Below are positions 1 through 34,441 of a stretch of DNA of 34,441 nucleotides, piece after piece. Every line of letters starts with the position of its first letter. The stretch's first letter is position 1. Both the position numbers and the translations under genes were made by a program. This DNA comes from a virus: IMG/VR virus record IMGVR_UViG_3300042556_001594, positions 1 to 34,441 of that record. One strand, written 5' to 3'. The notes under the pieces were generated by a model. The model was not told the origin of the DNA and did not search any database. It saw only the letters and a list, made by a program, of their open reading frames with translations.

Positions 1-176
1 AATCGACCGTGACGCTGACCACGGCGGGCATTTCGACGACAAACCCGTTTGTCATCGTTCACTATGACCTTGGCAGCGCCAAGACCATCCAGTTTGCCGA
101 CACGGTGGGGCTCATCGTTGACGGCGGTTCGGGCGTGTCGAACGAGGTGTTCATCCAGTATTCGACGGATAACATC
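1..176. repeat. Terminal overlap, copy 1 (circular assembly)
   Basis: Bases 1-176 are identical to 34266-34441, in the same orientation. Joining the two ends restores one long open frame across the junction, so the window represents a circular or circularly permuted molecule of about 34,265 bp. The repeat lies inside a tail gene. That argues against a T7-like physical terminal repeat, which normally lies outside genes, and for an assembler overlap or headful permutation. Confidence 0.95.
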
Positions 177-2719: not shown

Positions 2720-4832
2720 GCGCGCCCGCCTCACCGGAGGCCAGACCACCATTGCGCCGATCCCGTCGATCGGGGTGACGGACGCGGCCGCCAAGAACCT
2801 GACCGACTTTGCGTCCGGCCTCGCCAAGATCGGCGACCAGGCGCAGACGCAGCTCGATATTCAGGCGGTGCAGGAGGGCGAGAAGGCCGGCATTATCGCG
2901 GGCCTGTCGCCCAAGTTTGAGGTGCTGGGCGATGCGACCCTGCGCGCACGGGCCTATGACCGCGCCGGGCTTAACGTGTTCGTCAACCAGACGGACATTG
3001 CGACCCAGGCAAAGATTGACGAGCTGTATCAGGAAAATCAGGCCGACCCGATTGCGCTGAAGGCTGCGCTTAATGGCTGGCGCGAGGGGTTCCGCGCCGA
3101 CATGGAAGCGAACACGCCGCAGGCGGTGCCGTATTTCGACCAGTCTTTTGCGCGCAATACGCGGCCTGTGATTTTCGCTGCCGAGCGCCAGTTCCGCGAC
3201 AATCTGGAAAAGGAAGCCCGCGCCTCGCTGGTGTCGGCGGTCGAGACCAGCACCAACGCCGCGGCCCGCCTTGCATTCCTGTCCGATGCCAGCCCGGAAG
3301 CGGCCGGCGATCTGGTCGCGGCGCGCAATGCGCTGATCGACAAGCTGGTCGAGAATGGTCCGCAGGGCGCCTTTACCTTTGAGGGCCGCACGATGTCCAC
3401 CGACATCACCCGTCAAAAGGTGCTGGACGTGGCGCAGATGCAGAAGGTGCTCGCCGATTGGGATGAGCAGGCATATTCGCAGACGGTGCTTGGCCGTTTC
3501 AGCCGCGCGCCAGACAAGCGCAAATTCTTCGAGACGTTTAGCAAGGAACAGCAGGAAGACACCGCCTCGCCCATCGGCATCGACACCGTGAAGCGCATCC
3601 AGGCTGAAATGCGCGGGGCGCTGATCGCCGAGGATGCCGAGCGCCGTGCCCGCCGGGCCGAACTGAAGGACGGTGTGACGGATGCCGTCTATGTCCTCAA
3701 CCGCGGCCGCCTGCCTGCCGGGCTTGGCCAGTTGCGCGCGGCGGTGGCGGGCGATCCCGAATTGTCGGCGGAAGTCGAGGGCGCCATTCAGGACCGCGCC
3801 GTGGCCGGTGAATTTCTCAAGCTGAACCCCGGCGAACAGCGGGCCGCACTGACCGCGCTGACGCAGGACAAGAACGCGCCGACCGACCGCCGCAGCGTTG
3901 AACTGACCGCGCGCCTCGAAGCCCTGCACAACGAAACGCTGACCGGCCTGCGCGACGATCCCATCACCTTTGGCGCCGAGGCCGGGCTTTATGCGCTGCC
4001 CGTCATGGATCCGGCCAAGCCGGAAACCATTGCCGCCCGCGTGCGCGCCGCCCGCATCGTCGAAGATCGCTACGGCGTAGTGTCGTCGGGCCTGACCGCG
4101 CCGGAAGTCGAGCAGGTAACGCGCCGCATTGCCGGGGCCGACGCTGACGGCAAGGTGGGCTATATGCAGTCTTTCAACGCCGCCCTGGGCCGCGACCGGG
4201 CGGGCGTGCTGTGGGGTCAGGTGGCCAAGAAACAGCCGGCCTTTGCGCTGGCCGCCAGCATCGCCGACCAGTCGCCCGGCCTCGCTTCCGAGATCATCCG
4301 GGGTCAGGCGCTGGTTGACACCATGGGCGGCGGCGCCATCCCCGGCCCGGTCGACTATCGCCCCAAGGCTGATGCCACCCTGCGCGCCGCGTTCAAGTGG
4401 TCGCCGTCCAGTGCCGAGAATGTCACCAACGCCGCGCTTGCCGTCGAACTGGTGCGCCGTGCATCGACTGGCAAGACGACCTCTGCCGACTTCGACAAGG
4501 GCGTTTTCTCCGAGGCCCTGACCGAAATCACCGGCGGCATCCTGCTCCAGCCGAACGGCGGCAGGGTGGATCGCATCGTTGCCCCGGTGCGCGGTATGTC
4601 GCAGGACCGATTCTACGACCTGTTCGACAGCCTGGCCGACGATGACGTGGCCGGCGCGCTGGCTGGCACCAGCAAGATCACCGCGAAGGACATCAAGCGG
4701 TATGGCGTGCTCGAAAGCGTGGGCGATGGCCGCTATCTGGTCCGCATCGCGAATGGCTATGCCATGACGGCGGCGGGCGATCCGTTCCAGCTCGACCTTG
4801 GCGCCATCGCGCGCAAGCGGGGCGGCCGATGA
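2712..4832 (+). CDS. Internal virion protein, T7 gp15-like by position
   Basis: 706 residues, mostly predicted alpha-helical, with no signal peptide or obvious membrane segment. The start is a GTG at 2712 overlapping the previous gene by 8 bp, with GGGAG upstream. Length and position (between gp14-like and the large ejected proteins) match T7 gp15 (747 residues), part of the inner core and of the DNA-ejection conduit. The sequence is acidic and rich in Ala, Asp, Glu and Arg, with long amphipathic helices (for example residues 150-260). No catalytic motif was recognised. The functional call is by synteny only. Confidence 0.6.
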   Translation: MAERARLTGGQTTIAPIPSIGVTDAAAKNLTDFASGLAKIGDQAQTQLDIQAVQEGEKAGIIAGLSPKFEVLGDATLRARAYDRAGLNVFVNQTDIATQAKIDELYQENQADPIALKAALNGWREGFRADMEANTPQAVPYFDQSFARNTRPVIFAAERQFRDNLEKEARASLVSAVETSTNAAARLAFLSDASPEAAGDLVAARNALIDKLVENGPQGAFTFEGRTMSTDITRQKVLDVAQMQKVLADWDEQAYSQTVLGRFSRAPDKRKFFETFSKEQQEDTASPIGIDTVKRIQAEMRGALIAEDAERRARRAELKDGVTDAVYVLNRGRLPAGLGQLRAAVAGDPELSAEVEGAIQDRAVAGEFLKLNPGEQRAALTALTQDKNAPTDRRSVELTARLEALHNETLTGLRDDPITFGAEAGLYALPVMDPAKPETIAARVRAARIVEDRYGVVSSGLTAPEVEQVTRRIAGADADGKVGYMQSFNAALGRDRAGVLWGQVAKKQPAFALAASIADQSPGLASEIIRGQALVDTMGGGAIPGPVDYRPKADATLRAAFKWSPSSAENVTNAALAVELVRRASTGKTTSADFDKGVFSEALTEITGGILLQPNGGRVDRIVAPVRGMSQDRFYDLFDSLADDDVAGALAGTSKITAKDIKRYGVLESVGDGRYLVRIANGYAMTAAGDPFQLDLGAIARKRGGR

Positions 4833-7288
4833 TCTGGGATGATCGCGATGCCCTGAATGTGGCGCGCGGCACACCCGCGACCGGCGTGCCCACCAGCTTT
4901 GCCGAAAACTACCAGGCGGCGCGCGATGGCTTCATCCGCGAGAACCAGTCGGACAGCGCCTACACGCTCTACAGCGAGGCATATGACGACTACATCCAGC
5001 GTTTCGAGAAGCTGACCGGCAAGCGGCTGCGCAGCCCGACCGAATACGGCGGCATCGGCAGCAGCATCGCGGCCAACGGTGCCGTGCTGAAGGCAATTCA
5101 GGATCAGACCGCCGAAGTCGAGAAGATGCGGGCAAACTTTCCCGACCTTGCCGGCCAGATTGAGCCATTCCCGACGCTGGACACAATCCGCACGGCGGCA
5201 ATCCCGCGCGCTCGGGCGCAGCGTGCCAGCGAGGCCGACATCGCCAGCCGGTCAACCATCGGGGGCGATCTTGGCGCGGTGGCGGGCATGGTGGTCGGTG
5301 GCGTCACCGATCCCATTAACCTTGTTTCCCTGCCATTTGGCGCGGCTGCTGGCACCCGCGTGCTGACGGCAGCGGCTATCGAGGCGGGCGTCGTGCTGGG
5401 CACCGAGGCGCTGGTGGTGCAGCCGAATACCTATCGTTTCAAGGAATCCATCGACAGCCCCTACACCTTCAGCGAGGCCGTGGGCAACGCAGTGCTGGCG
5501 GCGGCTGGCACGGCGGTCCTGTCCGGCGCCATGCGCGCCGCCCCAATGACGGCCCGCAAGTTTCTGGACTGGTCGCGCGGCAACCGGCCCGACCGCCCCT
5601 TGACCCAGGCTGAACGCAACGCCGACGCGCTGCTGCAGCGCGAGGCCGAGGTGGGCGACAGCACGCCGAACGCGCCGACCGTCGAGGGCGACACCGCCCA
5701 TCTGGACACCTTTCAGCGTGCGATGGATGAGGTGGCCGAGGGCCGCCCGCTGGCCGAGGTGACGCCCGCGCCCCGTGGTGAGGCGCCCTTTGCCCCGCCG
5801 CTGGGTATTTCCCGCGTGCGTGCGGGCGACCTGCTGACCGGAGGCGAGGCACGCGGCGCAATCCCCGACGATTTTGACCCGGCCCGTGCTGGCGTCCTGC
5901 TGGTCTATGAGCGCGAAGACGGCGGGCTCATGGTCATGGATGGCCGGAAGCGCGTCGAGGCCGCCCAGCGGGCAAATCCGGGGCAGGAACTGGATGCCGT
6001 GGTTGTGCGCGAGCGGGACGGCTACACGCCCGACGAGGTGCAGGCCCGCGCCTTGCTCAAAAACGCGCTAGAGGGGACCATTTCCGGGCGCGAGCGATTC
6101 GACATCGACCGGGCCATTGATGGCGCTGGCCTGCCTCCCCTTGGCCCGCCCCTACGGCAGACAAAGCCACCCGAAACACTGGTCGAGTATCTTTCGCGGG
6201 TTGGCATTCGCCCCGACGATCCTGAGTTGAGCGATCTTGCGGTTGGCGAATTGCTGGCATCGTGGCACACCGGGAAACCATTTCGTCGTCGCATTTTGCG
6301 CGCGGATGGCCTGACGGTTCGCCAGGCGTTGGAACGCGCCGAAGGCGAGGGTTTCCTTGGGCTTCAGCTTGGGAACCGCATGCAGGGGGCCGACGAGTCG
6401 GCATTGTCCCGCGAAGCCTATCGCGCCGATAACATTGATGCGCTGGCCGACGCGCTCAATGATGAGCTGTTGCGCGGTCGGGCGCGCGTCCGTGGTCGCG
6501 ATGAGGCGGCCCGCGCGCAGATCGAGGGCGATGCCACGGCAGCGCGGCAAAATGATGAGTTTGAATCACGCTACGGTGCAGGCCGCGAAGGTGAATTGCG
6601 CTACCAGGCGCAGCAACTGGGAATGGACCGATGGGATACCGCCGACGAGGTTGACCTGCGCGACTTCATTGACGAACGGTTGGCGATTGAAGGCGAAGGT
6701 ATTACATTTGGCATTGACGAAAGCCTCACCGCCGCCCGCAACCGCGTGCTTGACGAGGCCGAAGCGGCCATCCGCGAGCGTCACGCCGACTGGCCGGGCG
6801 ATCCCGATGACCTGATCCGCGCCCTGCGGGAATCGACCGAAACGGAAGGGAGCCTGACCGATGCCCTCAACGATGCCGCCCGCGCCCTTGACGCCGGAGA
6901 TCAGCGCGCCGTCACCGCAACCCGCGATTTTCTCGGGGCTTTCCGCCGCGCAGTTGACGCGGGCGCTCTCGCTGGCGCGGATCGACGCGGTGGCGGACCT
7001 CTATCACCGGACGCAGGCGGCCCTCAGCGCCAGCGCGCCGAAGCCCTAGCCCGCGCCCAGGCTGACCAGACTGCCCGCCTTTCCGACGATCCCGCCTTCG
7101 ACGCGGCGCAGGCCGCCGAGGTGCGCCGTATCATGGCCAGCACCCCGGACATTGCCGTGCCCGTCCGGCAGGAGATCGACCCCGAAACCGGCCTGACCCG
7201 CGCGGAAACCATGAGCGCCGAGGCAATCCTGAAGGACGCCGACGATACCGCCCGGCTCGCTGACATCGTGAAAGGCTGCGCCACATGA
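4829..7288 (+). CDS. Large ejected virion protein with ParB/DdrB-like domain
   Basis: 819 residues, starting at the ATGA overlap with the previous stop. Residues 1-140 are helical. Residues 145-235 hold three hydrophobic glycine/alanine stretches (LGAVAGMVVGGV, AAAGTRVLTAAAIEAGVVLG, AVLAAAGTAVLSGAM) resembling membrane-inserting segments of ejected core proteins. Residues 325-430 resemble the ParB/DdrB-like fold of phage polyvalent proteins: a hydrophobic strand pair, then VMDGRKRVEAAQ at 369-380, equivalent to the G-x-R-R box, then an ALLKNALEGT helix. Residues 449-513 match the short polyvalent-associated motif (L-V-E-Y-L-S...RRILRADGLTV...A...EGFLG). The C terminus is helical and charged. 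It probably enters the cell with the DNA. T7 gp16-like lytic transglycosylase motifs were not seen. Confidence 0.65.
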   Translation: MIWDDRDALNVARGTPATGVPTSFAENYQAARDGFIRENQSDSAYTLYSEAYDDYIQRFEKLTGKRLRSPTEYGGIGSSIAANGAVLKAIQDQTAEVEKMRANFPDLAGQIEPFPTLDTIRTAAIPRARAQRASEADIASRSTIGGDLGAVAGMVVGGVTDPINLVSLPFGAAAGTRVLTAAAIEAGVVLGTEALVVQPNTYRFKESIDSPYTFSEAVGNAVLAAAGTAVLSGAMRAAPMTARKFLDWSRGNRPDRPLTQAERNADALLQREAEVGDSTPNAPTVEGDTAHLDTFQRAMDEVAEGRPLAEVTPAPRGEAPFAPPLGISRVRAGDLLTGGEARGAIPDDFDPARAGVLLVYEREDGGLMVMDGRKRVEAAQRANPGQELDAVVVRERDGYTPDEVQARALLKNALEGTISGRERFDIDRAIDGAGLPPLGPPLRQTKPPETLVEYLSRVGIRPDDPELSDLAVGELLASWHTGKPFRRRILRADGLTVRQALERAEGEGFLGLQLGNRMQGADESALSREAYRADNIDALADALNDELLRGRARVRGRDEAARAQIEGDATAARQNDEFESRYGAGREGELRYQAQQLGMDRWDTADEVDLRDFIDERLAIEGEGITFGIDESLTAARNRVLDEAEAAIRERHADWPGDPDDLIRALRESTETEGSLTDALNDAARALDAGDQRAVTATRDFLGAFRRAVDAGALAGADRRGGGPLSPDAGGPQRQRAEALARAQADQTARLSDDPAFDAAQAAEVRRIMASTPDIAVPVRQEIDPETGLTRAETMSAEAILKDADDTARLADIVKGCAT

Positions 7289-9708
7289 GCGTTTTCGACT
7301 GCATCGACGAGCGCGTCATTAATGGCGAAATGGCGCCGGAAGAGGCCGAAATGATCAAGCCGATCATTTCCCGGCTGGCGCGCGAGAACGCGGGCCGCAT
7401 GGCGCCGGATCAGGCCGAGGCCGCTGCCCTGATCGACGCCGCGAAAATCCTTGGCTATCAGGCCGAACGCAAGCGCCGCCTCGCCAACCTGTCGATCCTT
7501 GCAACCGACCGCAACGCCACGCTCGCCCAGGCGCACCCGCAGGGCACCATTGCGGGCATTCTGTCGCTGCTGACCCGCGACACCCACGAATGGGCCAGCC
7601 ACGCCAATGTTGAGGCCCGCATCAAATCCATCCGAGGCGCCCTGCACGCGAAATGGAACGAGGGCCTGGCCGCGCTCAAACCGAAATTCGGCCTGATCCC
7701 GCGCACCGCCGAACTGCGCAACGTGGTGCGCGAGCTGCACGGCGTCTCGACCGGCGACGAGGCTGCGTCGATGCTGGCCCGGTCATGGGCCGATGCTGCC
7801 GAATATGCCCGGCAGCGGTTCAATCTGGCCGGTGGGGCCATAGGCAAGCGCGAAGACTGGGGCATGCCGCATCAGTATGACGCCCGCCGCGTGGCCAGTG
7901 TTTCACGTGAAACATTTGTGGATGAGATCGAGGCCGCCATCGATCCGGGCCGATCATTCGACCCCGAAACCAACATGCCGATGACCCGCGAGGCAATCCG
8001 CGACAGCATCGGCCGCAGCTATGACGCTATCGTGTCCTATGGTTGGTCGCGCCGCGAGCCCGGAACCTTTACCGGACGGGGCATGGTGGCCAACCGCCAT
8101 CAGGAGGGCCGCGTCTGGACATTCCGCGACGGCGACTCGTGGCTGGGCATCAACGACAAATACGGCGACCCGGACCTGTTCGGCTCCCTCACGGGGCATT
8201 TCGAGCGCATGGCACGCGACACGGCGATGCTGGAAATTCTCGGCCCGAACCCGGATGCCATGGTCCGCCACCTGATCGACATCGCCAAGCAGAAGGCGGC
8301 GACCAGTGGCGCCAAGGCACCCACCGGCAAAATCGTTGACGACACCTATAGGGTTCTGACCGGCGACATCAACCGGGGCGGCGACTGGTGGCTTCCGCGC
8401 TTCATGGACGGCCTGCGCAACATGCTGACCGCGGCGCAGCTCGGCGGCGCATTCCTGTCCAGCGTGACCGACTGGAACACCGTCCGCCTGGCCACGCAAT
8501 TTAACGGCCTGTCGGCCACCCGCACAATCTCGCGCTACACGCGGTTGGTGACGCCGCTCGGCATCGAATACCAGAAAACCGCCGTTCGCCTTGGCCTGAT
8601 CGCGGAAAACTGGACCAGCATGGCAGTAGCCGCCGCGCGCATCCAGGGCGAAGTTCTCGGCCCCAAGATGACGCGCATGTTTGCCGACACGGTGATGCGC
8701 GCCTCGCTTCTGTCCCCGCACACCCAGGCATCACGCTGGGCTTTCGGCATGGAGTTTCTCGGCCGGCTGGCCGACGACGTGGCGTCCCCGATCGACGACC
8801 TTGCGCCGCCGCTGCGCAACGCGCTGCAGCGGTACGGCATCACCGCCGCCGATTGGGATGCGATCCGCGCTGCGCCGCTTTACGATTACGAGGGCGCCAA
8901 CTTCATTGACTTTGAGGCTATCGCCCAGCAGCCGGGCGGTACGCGCCTTGCCTCGCGCATGATCGAGATGGTGCAGACGGAAACCGAATTTGCCATCCCG
9001 TCGGGCAATGCGCTGGTCAAGGGCATCCTGACCCAAGGCACCGAGCGCGGCACCTTTATCGGCGAAATGGCACGCAGCATCGCCATGTATAAATCGTTCC
9101 CGGTAACGCTTATGGCGACCCATCTGATGCGCGGCCTTTCGCGGCCATCGGTGGCGCAAAAGGGCATCTATCTCGCGGACATTTTTGTTTCGCTCACGAT
9201 GTTTGGCGCGCTTGCCTACCAGCTTAAACAGGTGCAGCGCGGCAAAGACCCGGCGCCGATGGACAACGAGAAATTCTGGATGGCCGCCATGATGCAAGGC
9301 GGCGGGCTCGGGCTGTTCGGCGATTTCTTCTTTGCCGATCAAAACCGTTTTGGCGGCGGGCCGATCGAGAGTTTTGCCGGCCCGGTTGCTGGCCTTGGCG
9401 CGGACCTGCTGCGCGTTACCGTCGGCAACCTGCAGCAAGCCGTCAAAGGCGAAGACACCAACGCTGGCCGCGAAGCTGTGCGGGCGCTTGGCCGCTACGC
9501 GCCGGGCGGCAGTTTGTGGTATACGAGGCTTGCCTTTGAGCGACAGGTGCTCGACCGCTTGCAAGAGCAGGTTGACCCTCGGGCGGCCCGATCCTTTCGC
9601 GACACCGAGTCCCGTGCGCGGCGGGACATGGGTCAACGGTTCTGGTGGGCGCCTGGCGAGCGCGCACCCGAGCGTGCCCCCGATCTTGACGCGGCGCTTG
9701 GAGGCTAG
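7285..9708 (+). CDS. Large internal (ejected) virion protein
   Basis: 807 residues, start by ATGA overlap. It belongs to a type seen in many podophage and prophage core clusters: N-terminal helical part; a segment around 178-215 (RFNLAGG...W-G-M-P-H-Q-Y-D); then DGDSWLGINDKYGDPDLFGSLTGHFERMARDTAMLEILGPNPDA at about 282-325; then a long helical C-terminal half with a hydrophobic, glycine-rich stretch near 665-690. It fills the gp16 position together with the upstream 819-residue protein. No protease or transglycosylase active site was identified. The gene contains a perfect parS palindrome at codons 205-210, described separately. Confidence 0.65.
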   Translation: MSVFDCIDERVINGEMAPEEAEMIKPIISRLARENAGRMAPDQAEAAALIDAAKILGYQAERKRRLANLSILATDRNATLAQAHPQGTIAGILSLLTRDTHEWASHANVEARIKSIRGALHAKWNEGLAALKPKFGLIPRTAELRNVVRELHGVSTGDEAASMLARSWADAAEYARQRFNLAGGAIGKREDWGMPHQYDARRVASVSRETFVDEIEAAIDPGRSFDPETNMPMTREAIRDSIGRSYDAIVSYGWSRREPGTFTGRGMVANRHQEGRVWTFRDGDSWLGINDKYGDPDLFGSLTGHFERMARDTAMLEILGPNPDAMVRHLIDIAKQKAATSGAKAPTGKIVDDTYRVLTGDINRGGDWWLPRFMDGLRNMLTAAQLGGAFLSSVTDWNTVRLATQFNGLSATRTISRYTRLVTPLGIEYQKTAVRLGLIAENWTSMAVAAARIQGEVLGPKMTRMFADTVMRASLLSPHTQASRWAFGMEFLGRLADDVASPIDDLAPPLRNALQRYGITAADWDAIRAAPLYDYEGANFIDFEAIAQQPGGTRLASRMIEMVQTETEFAIPSGNALVKGILTQGTERGTFIGEMARSIAMYKSFPVTLMATHLMRGLSRPSVAQKGIYLADIFVSLTMFGALAYQLKQVQRGKDPAPMDNEKFWMAAMMQGGGLGLFGDFFFADQNRFGGGPIESFAGPVAGLGADLLRVTVGNLQQAVKGEDTNAGREAVRALGRYAPGGSLWYTRLAFERQVLDRLQEQVDPRAARSFRDTESRARRDMGQRFWWAPGERAPERAPDLDAALGG
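7899..7914. promoter_or_regulatory. parS: parS-like palindrome (ParB binding site)
   Basis: TGTTTCACGTGAAACA is a perfect 16-bp palindrome identical to the canonical chromosomal parS site recognised by ParB in most bacteria, including alphaproteobacteria. It lies in frame within the ejected-protein gene, coding V-S-R-E-T at residues 206-210. It uses codons (TCA, CGT, ACA) that are unusual beside the AGC/TCG, CGC and ACC of the surrounding gene. That suggests selection for the DNA sequence. No second full site was found by eye. Confidence 0.75.
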
Positions 9709-15919: not shown

Positions 15920-16079
15920 TGTTCAACTCCCTTTTCAGCCTGGCGGCCATGATGCGGACCAGCTTTCGCCGGGCACTGTGAACGGTTCCGGCGCGCTGGC
16001 CAATCGCGATCTTGACCGCGCGTTGCCCGGCCCGTTGCGCCCGCAGCGTGGCGGCGTCGTTGAGATCAAGCTGCCGCAT
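15909..16079 (-). CDS. Small basic protein, unknown
   Basis: 56 residues from the ATG at 16079 (AAGAGA just upstream), overlapping the methyltransferase 3' end by 14 bp. An upstream in-frame start at 16100 is possible. Rich in Arg/Lys and Ala ([17 protein letters not shown]). Could bind nucleic acid, but nothing specific is recognised. Confidence 0.5.
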
Positions 16080-16953
16080 TCTCTTGGGCAAACAGATCAA
16101 TCTGCTTGTCCTGCGCGTCGAGGTAGCGGCACGCCTGCCGGAAATAGGACGGCTTCAATTCGACGCCGACGAACTTGCGCCCGAGCTTCAGCGCCGTCAC
16201 GCCCTCGCTGCCGATGCCCATGAACGGCGACAGGACAACCTCGCCAGGATTACTCCACATGATGCAACCGCGCTCGATCACGTCGAGTTGCAGCGGGCAC
16301 AGGTGGCGCTCGTCGCCGGTTTCCTTCGCTGCCCGGACGTTGAGCACGTTGGACTGGTTGATAGTCATCCATACCGGCGATGCCCATTCCTGCCACTGGT
16401 CAAGCGGAAATGACTGCGGCGTCTGCTTGATCGGCGCGGCGTTGTCGCCCGGCTTCACGAACGTCATCAGATAGTCCGGCATCCCGCCGCGCGACTTGAT
16501 GCTGTCCTTCTGCAGTTGCTTGTAGAGCAGGCCGACATGCTTGGTCCGGGTCATCTCCGTGACGGGCGATTTCCAGATGGTGCGCCGGCTGTGCAAGATC
16601 CATCCCGCCGCCTCATGGATGCGGATGATGTCGCCGCTGAAATCCTTGATGCCAACGGCGCCTTCGCGCCACTTGGTCATCGGCAGGTCGGAGCAATGCA
16701 CGGCCGTGATGCGGCCCGGCTTGGTGATGCGGAACATTTCCCGCACCAGATAGCCATAGTGTTCCGCGAACTCGTCATCGGTGCTGTTGCCCATGTCGGC
16801 AGCGGATTCGCTGTAGACAAAGAGCGATCCGAACGGCGGCGAGTAGATCGAGAAATCGACGCAGGCATCGGGCATCTGCGAAACCACGTCAACGCAGTCG
16901 CCATTGTATGCCGTGAACTTGTCGCCGTGATGTTCAGCCAGGCAGCGGATCAT
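16066..16953 (-). CDS. DNA methyltransferase, N4-cytosine/N6-adenine type
   Basis: 295 residues from the ATG at 16953 (ATGA overlap with the helicase stop); an ATG two codons earlier is also possible. Catalytic motif IV reads S-P-P-F at 38-41, closer to the S-P-P-Y of N4-cytosine and some N6-adenine enzymes than to D-P-P-Y. The AdoMet-binding motif is at the C-terminal end (L-S-P-F-M-G-I-G-S-E-G near 241-251, then F-V-G-V-E-L), giving the IV-then-I order of the beta class. No restriction endonuclease is nearby, so it is an orphan enzyme. Protection against host restriction or epigenetic marking are both possible. The target site cannot be read from sequence. Confidence 0.88.
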   Translation of the reverse strand: MIRCLAEHHGDKFTAYNGDCVDVVSQMPDACVDFSIYSPPFGSLFVYSESAADMGNSTDDEFAEHYGYLVREMFRITKPGRITAVHCSDLPMTKWREGAVGIKDFSGDIIRIHEAAGWILHSRRTIWKSPVTEMTRTKHVGLLYKQLQKDSIKSRGGMPDYLMTFVKPGDNAAPIKQTPQSFPLDQWQEWASPVWMTINQSNVLNVRAAKETGDERHLCPLQLDVIERGCIMWSNPGEVVLSPFMGIGSEGVTALKLGRKFVGVELKPSYFRQACRYLDAQDKQIDLFAQENAAA

Positions 16954-18332
16954 AGCCATTTCGGAAGCCTCCCCTCGTGTGTTGGATTGTAACCGATGCG
17001 GGCGACCTGATCGCCGTATACCGCATCGCGCATCGCCTGCCGCATTGCGGCGCGCATCCTATCGTGGTCTGCCGCTTTGCGCTCCACGACGCGGCCGATC
17101 TCGGTTTCACCTTCGGCCACGACAACATGCACTTGCAGGTTGCGCGTCTGGCCAAAGCGCCAGCATCGCCGGACGGCCTGATACCATGCCTCGTAGGAAT
17201 AGGACCGGCCGCAGAAGATCATCCGGGCACAGTGCGACCAGTCGAGGCCAAAGCCAAGCATGGACGGCTTGCCGATCAGATGCTGGATGGAACCCGTCGC
17301 GAAGCCTTCAATGCGTTCCTCTTTCTTCTCAGTGGGCATCGATCCCCGCACGTCAAGCGCGGTCGGGATCGCGGCCAGTAGGGCATCGGCCTCGTAGTCG
17401 GTATCGCACCAAATGATCCATGGTTCACTGGCATCTTCCGCCACAATGGCCGCAACCTTCTCCGCACGGGCGGCGCTCGTCTGCCGCTTTACATCGTGCA
17501 TGTTGGTCGCGCTCATGTTGACCTGGCCAAACATATCGGAAAGGTCACTGTCTACGTTGCTGTCGCGGGCGCGGTGGCGGATAACGTCGAAGGGCGGCAG
17601 CACATAGCCATCATCGTTGTCGCCCAGGTCAGACGGCAGGCTGGCCATGCGTGCCCATGACGCCATCCAGCGCCAGAAATCTCGCTCGGCATGGCCCTTA
17701 AGCCGCCATGTCTGCGATGCTGTAGATGCGTCGTTGATAAACCACCGGCTCAACATTTCGTTGGCCTGCATAATCGACAGGAACTCGGCATAGTTGCCGA
17801 TCTCCATGTGATCGTTGGGCGCTGGCGTTGCCGTGGCGGCCAGTCGAAAGCGGTGCCCGCCAAATGCCGCGATCAGTGCCTTGGTGGTTTTGCCGGTAAA
17901 GCTCTTAAGAATAGATGCCTCGTCAAGCGCCACCGCGCCATAGGCCGATGGGTCGAGTTTGTCGAGACGGTCATAGTTGCAGATGTTGATGCCCGGCCCG
18001 GCCTCGGATTGCTCGCGGATGACGCGGGCCTCATAGCCCCAGCGTTCGGCGCGGCGGCGCGTCTGGCCAGCAACCGCAAGCGGCGTCAAGATCAGCGCCC
18101 GTCCATTTGTGGCGCGCATCGCCTGGTTGCACCATTCCAACTGAACTTCCGTCTTGCCCATGCCGGTGTCGAGAAAGCACCCGGTTGACCCAACGCGCAG
18201 CGCAAATTCGACGCATAGCCGCTGGAACGGGAACAGGTGCGGCGCAAGGTCCGGCACGGTGTCCAGTCCCCGGATCGCAGGTGTCACGGCCTTCGACGCG
18301 AGGAATGACTTGTAGTCAGGTCGCATGTTCAT
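16950..18332 (-). CDS. SNF2-like superfamily 2 helicase/translocase
   Basis: 460 residues, start by ATGA overlap. Motif I is D-T-G-M-G-K-T at 55-61, motif II D-E-A-S at 137-140, motif III A-T-A-T-P-A-P-N-D near 166-174 and motif VI Q-A-V-R-R-C-W-R-F-G-Q near 385-395. This is the compact Snf2/DEAD-like type found in many phages, often beside a DNA methyltransferase as here. It would move along DNA using ATP; roles in replication, recombination or displacing bound proteins have been proposed. The C-terminal 65 residues are helical and charged. Confidence 0.9.
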   Translation of the reverse strand: MNMRPDYKSFLASKAVTPAIRGLDTVPDLAPHLFPFQRLCVEFALRVGSTGCFLDTGMGKTEVQLEWCNQAMRATNGRALILTPLAVAGQTRRRAERWGYEARVIREQSEAGPGINICNYDRLDKLDPSAYGAVALDEASILKSFTGKTTKALIAAFGGHRFRLAATATPAPNDHMEIGNYAEFLSIMQANEMLSRWFINDASTASQTWRLKGHAERDFWRWMASWARMASLPSDLGDNDDGYVLPPFDVIRHRARDSNVDSDLSDMFGQVNMSATNMHDVKRQTSAARAEKVAAIVAEDASEPWIIWCDTDYEADALLAAIPTALDVRGSMPTEKKEERIEGFATGSIQHLIGKPSMLGFGLDWSHCARMIFCGRSYSYEAWYQAVRRCWRFGQTRNLQVHVVVAEGETEIGRVVERKAADHDRMRAAMRQAMRDAVYGDQVARIGYNPTHEGRLPKWL

Positions 18333-21557: not shown

Positions 21558-21781
21558 TTGGTTTCCTTTCGCGGATCGCTCGCAAGGATGCTGTTGATGT
21601 GCAGCAGGGCAAGGTCTTTCTCGCCGTTGATGATGGCCCGCCGGGCGTGCTCCGCAGCGTCCAGCGCGGAAATGAACAACCCGGCCAGCGCACCGGAGAC
21701 GACCGGGTAAAACCGATCGTCCGACGGCTGGTCATGCTGCCGTGCCACAGCGTCCAGTAGGTTCAATGGAATGCGGGGCAT
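21554..21781 (-). CDS. Hypothetical protein
   Basis: 75 residues from the ATG at 21781 (TGATG overlap with the methyltransferase-like gene). Helical; G-A-L-A-G-L-F-I-S-A-L-D-A-A-E-H-A-R-R-A-I-I-N near 31-53. No domain recognised. Confidence 0.6.
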   Translation of the reverse strand: MPRIPLNLLDAVARQHDQPSDDRFYPVVSGALAGLFISALDAAEHARRAIINGEKDLALLHINSILASDPRKETK

Positions 21782-22545
21782 CAATTTCTCCCAATAAAAT
21801 TGGAAACAGACTGCGCCACCGCAGCGGCAATGCCGGGATATGTGTCGGCTCGTTTCTGCCAGCGGTCGGCGCCAGGTGAAATGCGGTTCTGGCCGGCGTC
21901 GGTCTGGTTCGCCCAGCGCAGCCGCCCGCCGACGTTGCGAGCCGGAACAAGTTTTGCCGGGTCGCGCGGCAATTGCCAGTCCAACACTTGCGCGTCCCGG
22001 TTAATGAACCAAAGGCATGTTGCCTTGCTGGCGTCATCGCCAAAGTGATACGGCTGCACAATGTCAGACGGCCGGCACCACGCGCTTGACAGGTGGCCAA
22101 CCGGATTTTCAATCACTTTGATGTCGATGGGCAGCGCGGCCAGCCGGTTCACATGCGCGACTGCTTCCCGGCGCGCATCGCGGCGCGCTCGCCCAACCAG
22201 CGTTTCGGGCTTCACCTTCTGATGATAGCCAACACCCGGCCAGCGCGTGTAATCGGGATCGGCAAATGCCCATGACGCACTGTTCGTCAGATTGGTGCAG
22301 TCGGGATGGAGCACGGCGGCTGCGGGCCACATATCTGTGGCGCGCATGTTCTCCAGCATCTCGAATATATCGCCGGTCATATGACGGCCGAGCGGCAGGC
22401 CGTCGGCGCTGTATGCCATTTCCTCGCCGTCATCCTGAGATGGCAGACGGTCTATCGAATAGGTTTCATGCCCCAACGCCTGAAAAGCGCGGCGCATCAC
22501 GCCGGACGTTTCCATGCCCACGACGACGATGCCGTGGCGCTTCAC
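21781..22545 (-). CDS. Divergent C5-cytosine methyltransferase-like protein
   Basis: 254 residues from a GTG at 22545 in a GTGA overlap. Rossmann start G-I-V-V-V-G-M-E-T-S-G-V-M-R-R-A-F (motif I), then G-H-E-T-Y-S-I-D (motif II), A-A-V-L-H-P-D-C-T in the place of the catalytic P-C loop (Cys kept), and I-E-N-P-V-G (motif VI E-N-V). The typical C-terminal target-recognition and motif X regions are missing or altered. Many phages encode this short type, annotated as DNA cytosine methyltransferase without proven activity. It may protect phage DNA or act on another base derivative. Confidence 0.75.
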   Translation of the reverse strand: MKRHGIVVVGMETSGVMRRAFQALGHETYSIDRLPSQDDGEEMAYSADGLPLGRHMTGDIFEMLENMRATDMWPAAAVLHPDCTNLTNSASWAFADPDYTRWPGVGYHQKVKPETLVGRARRDARREAVAHVNRLAALPIDIKVIENPVGHLSSAWCRPSDIVQPYHFGDDASKATCLWFINRDAQVLDWQLPRDPAKLVPARNVGGRLRWANQTDAGQNRISPGADRWQKRADTYPGIAAAVAQSVSNFIGRN

Positions 22546-22742
22546 TGCGCGGCCTTCTCGGCAGCGTAGGCCCGGCACCACTCCCGAGCCTCATCCGTGC
22601 AATTGCCAACCCGCACGATGGCGTCAGCCATGCCGGGCGCCAACCGCTTGTCGCGGCGGCACTCCATCATGCGGATAGTTTCCTGCACGTCGGCCAATGT
22701 CTGTGTGCGGCGCTTGCCGTCATATGCGGGCTGGTTGTTCAT
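22542..22742 (-). CDS. Hypothetical protein
   Basis: 66 residues from the ATG at 22742, 1 nt after the preceding stop. Helical, with T-L-A-D-V-Q-E-T-I-R-M-M-E-C-R-R-D-K-R near 20-38. Coupled by GTGA to the methyltransferase-like gene. Function unknown. Confidence 0.6.
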   Translation of the reverse strand: MNNQPAYDGKRRTQTLADVQETIRMMECRRDKRLAPGMADAIVRVGNCTDEAREWCRAYAAEKAAQ

Positions 22743-34004: not shown

Positions 34005-34441
34005 TGGCGCGCGTCCACCGCATCCAGACCAACTTTTCGGCCGGCGAGCTTGACCGCAACCTGCGGGCGCGCACGGACCTGCGCTATTACTATTCAGGCG
34101 CGGGCAAGCTGCGCAATGTGCTGGTGAAGCCGCAGGGCGGCGCGGCACGCCGTCCGGGCCTGCAATACATCGACACGGTGCCCTTCCAGATCACGCGCGT
34201 GTCGAGCGGCGTGACCGCGACCGCGCCCAACGGCGGCACGGCGAACAACGCGAACGACGACAGTGAATCGACCGTGACGCTGACCACGGCGGGCATTTCG
34301 ACGACAAACCCGTTTGTCATCGTTCACTATGACCTTGGCAGCGCCAAGACCATCCAGTTTGCCGACACGGTGGGGCTCATCGTTGACGGCGGTTCGGGCG
34401 TGTCGAACGAGGTGTTCATCCAGTATTCGACGGATAACATC
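34004..34441 (+). CDS. Tail nozzle / tail tubular protein B-like, 5' part
   Basis: First 146 codons in this window; the unique part is 34004-34265 and the rest duplicates 1-176. The N terminus shows the strong family signature: I-Q-T-N-F-S-A-G-E-L-D near 7-17, R-T-D-L-R-Y-Y-Y-S-G near 23-32, then L-R-N-V-L-V-K-P-Q-G-G-A-A-R-R-P-G near 36-52. Joined to base 1 it gives one 807-residue protein. Confidence 0.88.
   Translation, partial: MARVHRIQTNFSAGELDRNLRARTDLRYYYSGAGKLRNVLVKPQGGAARRPGLQYIDTVPFQITRVSSGVTATAPNGGTANNANDDSESTVTLTTAGISTTNPFVIVHYDLGSAKTIQFADTVGLIVDGGSGVSNEVFIQYSTDNI
34266..34441. repeat. Terminal overlap, copy 2 (circular assembly)
   Basis: Exact copy of bases 1-176. Annotation of this segment duplicates the start of the window, so count it only once. 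Confidence 0.95.

Follow-up and report, generated by a model that had tools for sequence, protein, structure and literature searches.

The window analysed here, virus record IMGVR_UViG_3300042556_001594 at its full length of 34,441 bases, is a podophage genome that raises an unexpected question: why should a phage carry, within a gene for a virion protein, the site at which bacterial chromosomes load ParB? The relevant features are as follows.

1..176 and 34266..34441: direct terminal repeat, two identical copies
4829..7288, plus strand: large, rapidly evolving virion-module gene (ORF, 819 aa), upstream of the gp17-like gene
5807..6238, plus strand: ParB/sulfiredoxin-like domain within the 819-aa protein, placed by alignment, with DGRKR where relatives have DGHQR
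7285..9708, plus strand: virion protein gene (807 aa) of the epsilon15/phiV10 gp17 family, matching phrog_684 'virion structural protein' with E=3.5e-172
7899..7914: parS, TGTTTCACGTGAAACA, a perfect 16-bp palindrome and exact match to the consensus

The genome is complete, since its two ends carry the same 176 bases, a repeat representing either a circular map or terminal redundancy. GC content is 64%. Of the ORFs compared with PHROGs, none was recognised as an integrase. A strictly lytic or non-integrating life style is thus possible for this phage, a missing match being no proof. Close relatives were found neither by megablast among phages nor among viral contigs searched with the single 807-aa protein, and the nearest relatives recovered by profile search are only about 43% identical to the window protein.

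The sequence-only reading had reported a palindrome identical to canonical parS, in frame in the virion gene, and an exact match to the consensus as used in PMC10197239 was indeed found at that position. No second parS-like position occurs in the 34,441 bases at up to 4 mismatches. Read in the frame of the virion ORF, the site is covered by codons AGT, GTT, TCA, CGT, GAA and ACA, which encode S-V-S-R-E-T at residues 205-210. The earlier estimate that such a site arises by chance about 8 times in a million holds as a uniform-base value but falls to 1.3e-6 at the base composition of 64% GC, and to 1.6e-6 when proteins are held fixed and synonymous codons are redrawn at genome frequencies. Under the synonymous-codon model, the amino acids permit parS nowhere else in the genes modelled. 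A near-match would mean little, because 5 of 100 dinucleotide shuffles contain a match with 3 mismatches or fewer; an exact match does mean something. The codons TCA, CGT and ACA had also been described as atypical, and each is indeed uncommon in this gene (10%, 5% and 7% of the codons for their amino acids); GTT (31%) and GAA (42%) are ordinary. Collectively, these values make it very unlikely that parS arose by chance or as a coding by-product, and 7899-7914 is almost certainly a real, non-random parS of host type.

Several lines of evidence point to the probable host. Among cellular genomes, those with the best relatives belong to Sphingobium, Sphingomonas, Nitratireductor, Rhizobium, Rhodobacteraceae and other Alphaproteobacteria. 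The window under-uses GANTC, at which CcrM methylates DNA in this class (27 occurrences versus 56 in synonymous shuffles, z -5.4), although two other motifs are equally low. Moreover, 39 genomes with related prophages, nearly all of them alphaproteobacterial, were searched for the identical 16-mer, and 27 carry it in one to two copies each. The host is thus likely a member of the Alphaproteobacteria, as judged from sequence. The window site is identical to this 16-mer, the probable parS of the chromosomal ParABS systems of the group, but it lies in phage coding sequence, away from any parA or parB. The coding sequence of the window also avoids GTAC (11 occurrences versus 50 expected from synonymous shuffles) and CTNAG (15 versus 43). 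Two DNA methyltransferase genes lie on the minus strand at 16066-16959 and 21781-22581 (phrog_67 and phrog_757) and are possibly tied to the avoidance of GTAC, GANTC and CTNAG.

The gene holding the site belongs to a recognisable family. Virion proteins of phiV10, SPN1S and other podophages align with its product from end to end, and tblastn with the 807-aa protein gave matches in 112 phages. The protein is probably packaged or ejected, and the label 'ejected' given to it previously is plausible. In alignments, the parS codons (205-210) fall in a variable stretch. VSRET occurs in none of 31 aligned relatives (36-43% identity), yet its residues are seen singly at these columns (V in 9, S in 7, R in 4, E in 9 and T in 2 of 32 rows, the window included), indicating that the peptide is tolerated here. 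Exact parS was absent from 87 homologous viral or phage loci (1.33 Mb) and from 80 homologous loci of cellular genomes (1.54 Mb), where a single site with one mismatch was found (locus L290). As both sets lack VSRET and reach no more than about 43% identity, they have no power to show whether the palindrome outlasts synonymous change. Since the relatives lack both the palindrome and the amino acids, parS is best read as a lineage-specific gain in a stretch that tolerates VSRET; it is not a conserved trait of the gp17-like family.

Outside this family, parS is far more frequent in phages than matched palindromes. Exact TGTTTCACGTGAAACA was found in 286 of 50,697 phage records, using parS flanked by runs of N as query and a threshold just admitting the exact 16-mer. 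The matches occupy 824 places on the two strands, or about 412 sites, since each palindrome is counted on both. Two control palindromes of the same base composition gave 0 and 0 matches in these records. The collection repeats records of one genus (87 from Listeria, for example), and independent origins therefore lie far below 286. The parS phages span about a dozen host genera and several virus families. Among viral contigs, at least 120 contain parS versus 5 and 9 for the control palindromes, which places the chance share of parS-bearing contigs at no more than about 4-8%. An 18-mer (parS plus GC) was likewise found in at least 120 viral contigs and is held by 5 of the 120 parS contigs listed; extrapolation from these five contigs, with wide error, suggests that parS is present in about 2,900 or more. 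A simple ORF call places 76 of 146 sites between genes, and others lie in terminal repeats or early-type genes. Genes holding parS include those for a DarB-like antirestriction protein, a primase/helicase, and a transglycosylase or tail-type protein. Host-type variants of parS, present in hundreds of phage records, were also noted in virulent P100-like Listeria phages, in Lactobacillus, Gordonia and Arthrobacter phages, in Microbacterium phages (within an HTH gene), and in the terminal repeats of Vibrio phage phi3 and Pseudomonas phage phiPsa374. Roseobacter phage DSS3P8 has 3 sites and 5-kb microviruses have up to 6, and in single viral records (L017, L044, L053 and bajarodino viruses 6 and 69) 3-6 sites cluster within a few kb.

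The variants of parS carried by phages look tuned to their hosts, to judge from the names attached to the records. Pseudomonas phages form the largest group with TGTTCCACGTGGAACA (17 of 58 records). The mixed form TGTTCCACGTGAAACA is commonest in phages of Pseudomonas (36), Arthrobacter (28) and Bacillus (24) among 147 records, and TGTTTCACGTGAAACA in phages of Listeria, Microbacterium, Arthrobacter and Gordonia. Escherichia, which is not known to have a chromosomal ParB, falls outside the ten commonest names for parS, with at least 745 Escherichia phage records in the collection. Ten records of Klebsiella jumbo phages hold TGTTCCACGTGGAACA, the Pseudomonas type, although Klebsiella is not known to possess a chromosomal ParB either. 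Some phage parS sites therefore need not be functional. In Klebsiella phages RaK2, K64-1 and Muenster, the Pseudomonas-type site lies within a baseplate wedge gene.

Few of the parS-bearing viruses appear to encode a partner of their own. A PF02195 ParB match (E<=0.001) was obtained for 4 of 100 parS-bearing viral records and not for the other 96, with the proviso that such records are often fragments, and a ParB-family match was present in 5 of 35 records of a second set. In the window genome, PF02195 gave no match even at E<=10, and no partition family occurs among its PHROGs matches. We thus rejected the idea that the window is a phage-plasmid with its own ParABS.

One candidate partner nearer the site is the ParB/sulfiredoxin-like domain of the upstream gene. 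The 819-aa protein has no PHROG or Pfam match, and nor does the domain by itself in Pfam. Similar genes lie upstream of gp17 homologues in relatives, and a domain of the same pattern is found there in some 50 of them. With a low-confidence model of the domain (pLDDT 52), the top Foldseek matches were Noc and ParB, with Srx lower, but all had E>=0.096 and none was significant. A profile search against solved structures returned mostly multi-copy ubiquitin matches that we judged spurious. DdrB-ParB domains of the polyvalent proteins injected by phages are predicted NTP-regulated DNases unrelated to partition (PMC5512222). The window domain is of the same general pattern, although it lacks a Pfam match and the likeness is by pattern only. 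Its candidacy as the parS binder is weak, for relatives without parS possess the domain as well, and there is no reason to link the two.

In other phages, parS is retained where the surrounding gene diverges. Gene 15 of phi29-like phages carries an intact site in B103, BSP11, Goe1, hmny2 and Chedec 11, with one change in W1188; Chedec 11 and B103 share 74% amino acid identity in this gene and 53% identical codons at shared residues. Phi29 and Goe6 have TGTTTCACGTGGAACA at the same gene-15 codons despite an E-to-G change. The reverse complement of TGTTTCACGTGGAACA is TGTTCCACGTGAAACA, the B. subtilis form of parS. Phi29 contains four TGTTTCACGTGGAACA sites (10445, 15903, 17243 and 18760), one of them that of gene 15, a late gene; a further one is in gene 10, also late. 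Four pairs of divergent viral contigs (34-74% amino acid identity) also hold parS at the same aligned codons, both members of each pair having been found through parS.

A function for such sites is on record in phi29, a virulent phage whose chromosome is reported to become trapped in the spore through the action of Spo0J (ParB) (Meijer et al. 2005 EMBO J 24:3647, cited by PMC9437464). This precedent was absent from the sequence-only reading. As in the window, host-type parS is present on phage DNA and partly inside late genes. Phi29, however, has four sites and a spore-forming host, whereas the window has a single site, which we count against our preferred explanation. The outcome must also differ from that in phi29, because the likely alphaproteobacterial hosts form no endospores.

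What, then, does the window site do? That its codons happen to spell parS would be helped by the tolerance of the stretch for each of the five residues, and by the fact that the window was chosen because the site is present. With 1.6e-6 such sites expected in the genome, and with the control palindromes so rare among viral contigs, this explanation has only a slim chance of being right. That the contig, or a recombination event, took up host DNA is nearly excluded: host pieces do occur in viral contig sets, but the present sequence is a complete phage with terminal repeats, and the site is in frame in a virion gene whose homologues match it from end to end. The site might instead be an operator for a phage DNA-binding protein, reached by convergence, or a centromere for a phage ParB-like protein, as the ParB/Srx-like domain in the adjoining gene could suggest. 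We consider this highly improbable given the lack of PF02195 even at E<=10 and the presence of the domain in relatives devoid of the site; a single-copy operator would moreover be unusual and its exact identity to host parS a coincidence.

The remaining alternatives accept host ParB as the ligand. A local effect on DNA in place of segregation, whereby spreading ParB would silence or road-block transcription, or recruit SMC and so condense phage DNA, in the late virion block, is an unlikely but tangible possibility. The window site lies in the middle of that block, two of the four phi29 sites are in late genes, and spreading of ParB silences the neighbours of the P1 centromere (according to a reference listed in PMC5815017). 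Sites in other phages, by contrast, are often intergenic or lie in terminal repeats or early-type genes. Titration, in which the phage would pull ParB off the host origin and disturb the chromosome cycle, can draw on the facts that ParB molecules are few and spread far and that phage copy number climbs during infection. A single site per genome would nonetheless make a poor sponge early in infection, and we give this account very little credence.

We are left with the proposal that the palindrome recruits host ParB to manage phage DNA. At parS, ParB loads as a CTP-gated clamp, from where it spreads (PMC8367383 and PMC12704722). On injected phage DNA, host ParB-CTP dimers would close on parS and slide over neighbouring DNA. 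The phage genome would thereby gain a partition complex, and host ParA would handle it like a copy of the replication origin; SMC recruited by ParB and polar anchors may also engage it. The likeliest benefit would be that phage DNA is held in position and not lost from the cell or its progeny while lysis is put off. The recruitment idea in the sequence-only reading has gained partial support, through the improbability of the site, its match to the 16-mer of the probable host group, the enrichment among phages, mostly without a phage ParB, host tuning and conservation elsewhere; titration, which it had offered as an option, seems weak with one site in 34 kb. Loading of host ParB at 7899-7914 is, in our judgement, likely. 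We infer both binding and benefit, and judge it reasonably probable that 7899-7914 serves the host's chromosomal ParB as a functional loading site through which phage DNA is handled like an origin. The gain to the phage would be positioning, retention or SMC recruitment.

Comparable exploitation of partition and cell-cycle systems is known. SGI1 hijacks the parABS of IncC plasmids (PMC10954446) and resembles the window as a mobile element relying on the partition system of another replicon, although SGI1 is an integrative element using a plasmid system and the window a phage using that of the host chromosome. CtrA-controlled lytic deferment (PMC9437464) shows alphaproteobacterial phages exploiting host cell-cycle machinery, and its authors draw the phi29 parallel; the means there is a transcription factor, whereas here it would be a centromere site. 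The window was also searched for CtrA sites, which would have hinted further at deferred lysis, but TTAA-N7-TTAA is absent even with one mismatch allowed. In the literature searched, which left aside preprints and most subscription journals, host parS in virulent phages is undescribed beyond the phi29 citation. The kind of device is thus known through phi29; new, within that literature, are the probably non-sporulating host and the breadth among phages.

That breadth invites a more general proposition, for which we see the case as evenly balanced: host-tuned parS would be a strategy common among phages, having arisen repeatedly in those whose hosts possess ParB, and would allow non-integrating phages to ride host segregation in non-sporulating cells, with the window as one of many instances. 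The groups concerned are phages of Firmicutes, Actinobacteria, Pseudomonas and Alphaproteobacteria, and even microviruses. Laboratory phages with sites, including phi29, B103 and Roseobacter phage DSS3P8, make the reading testable, and the parS variant may hint at the host of a metagenomic phage from sequence. If the reading is true, many phages taken for simple lytic viruses have their DNA anchored to the centromere machinery of the host, and this would account for the way in which non-integrating phages keep their position in slow-growing cells or are inherited by them.
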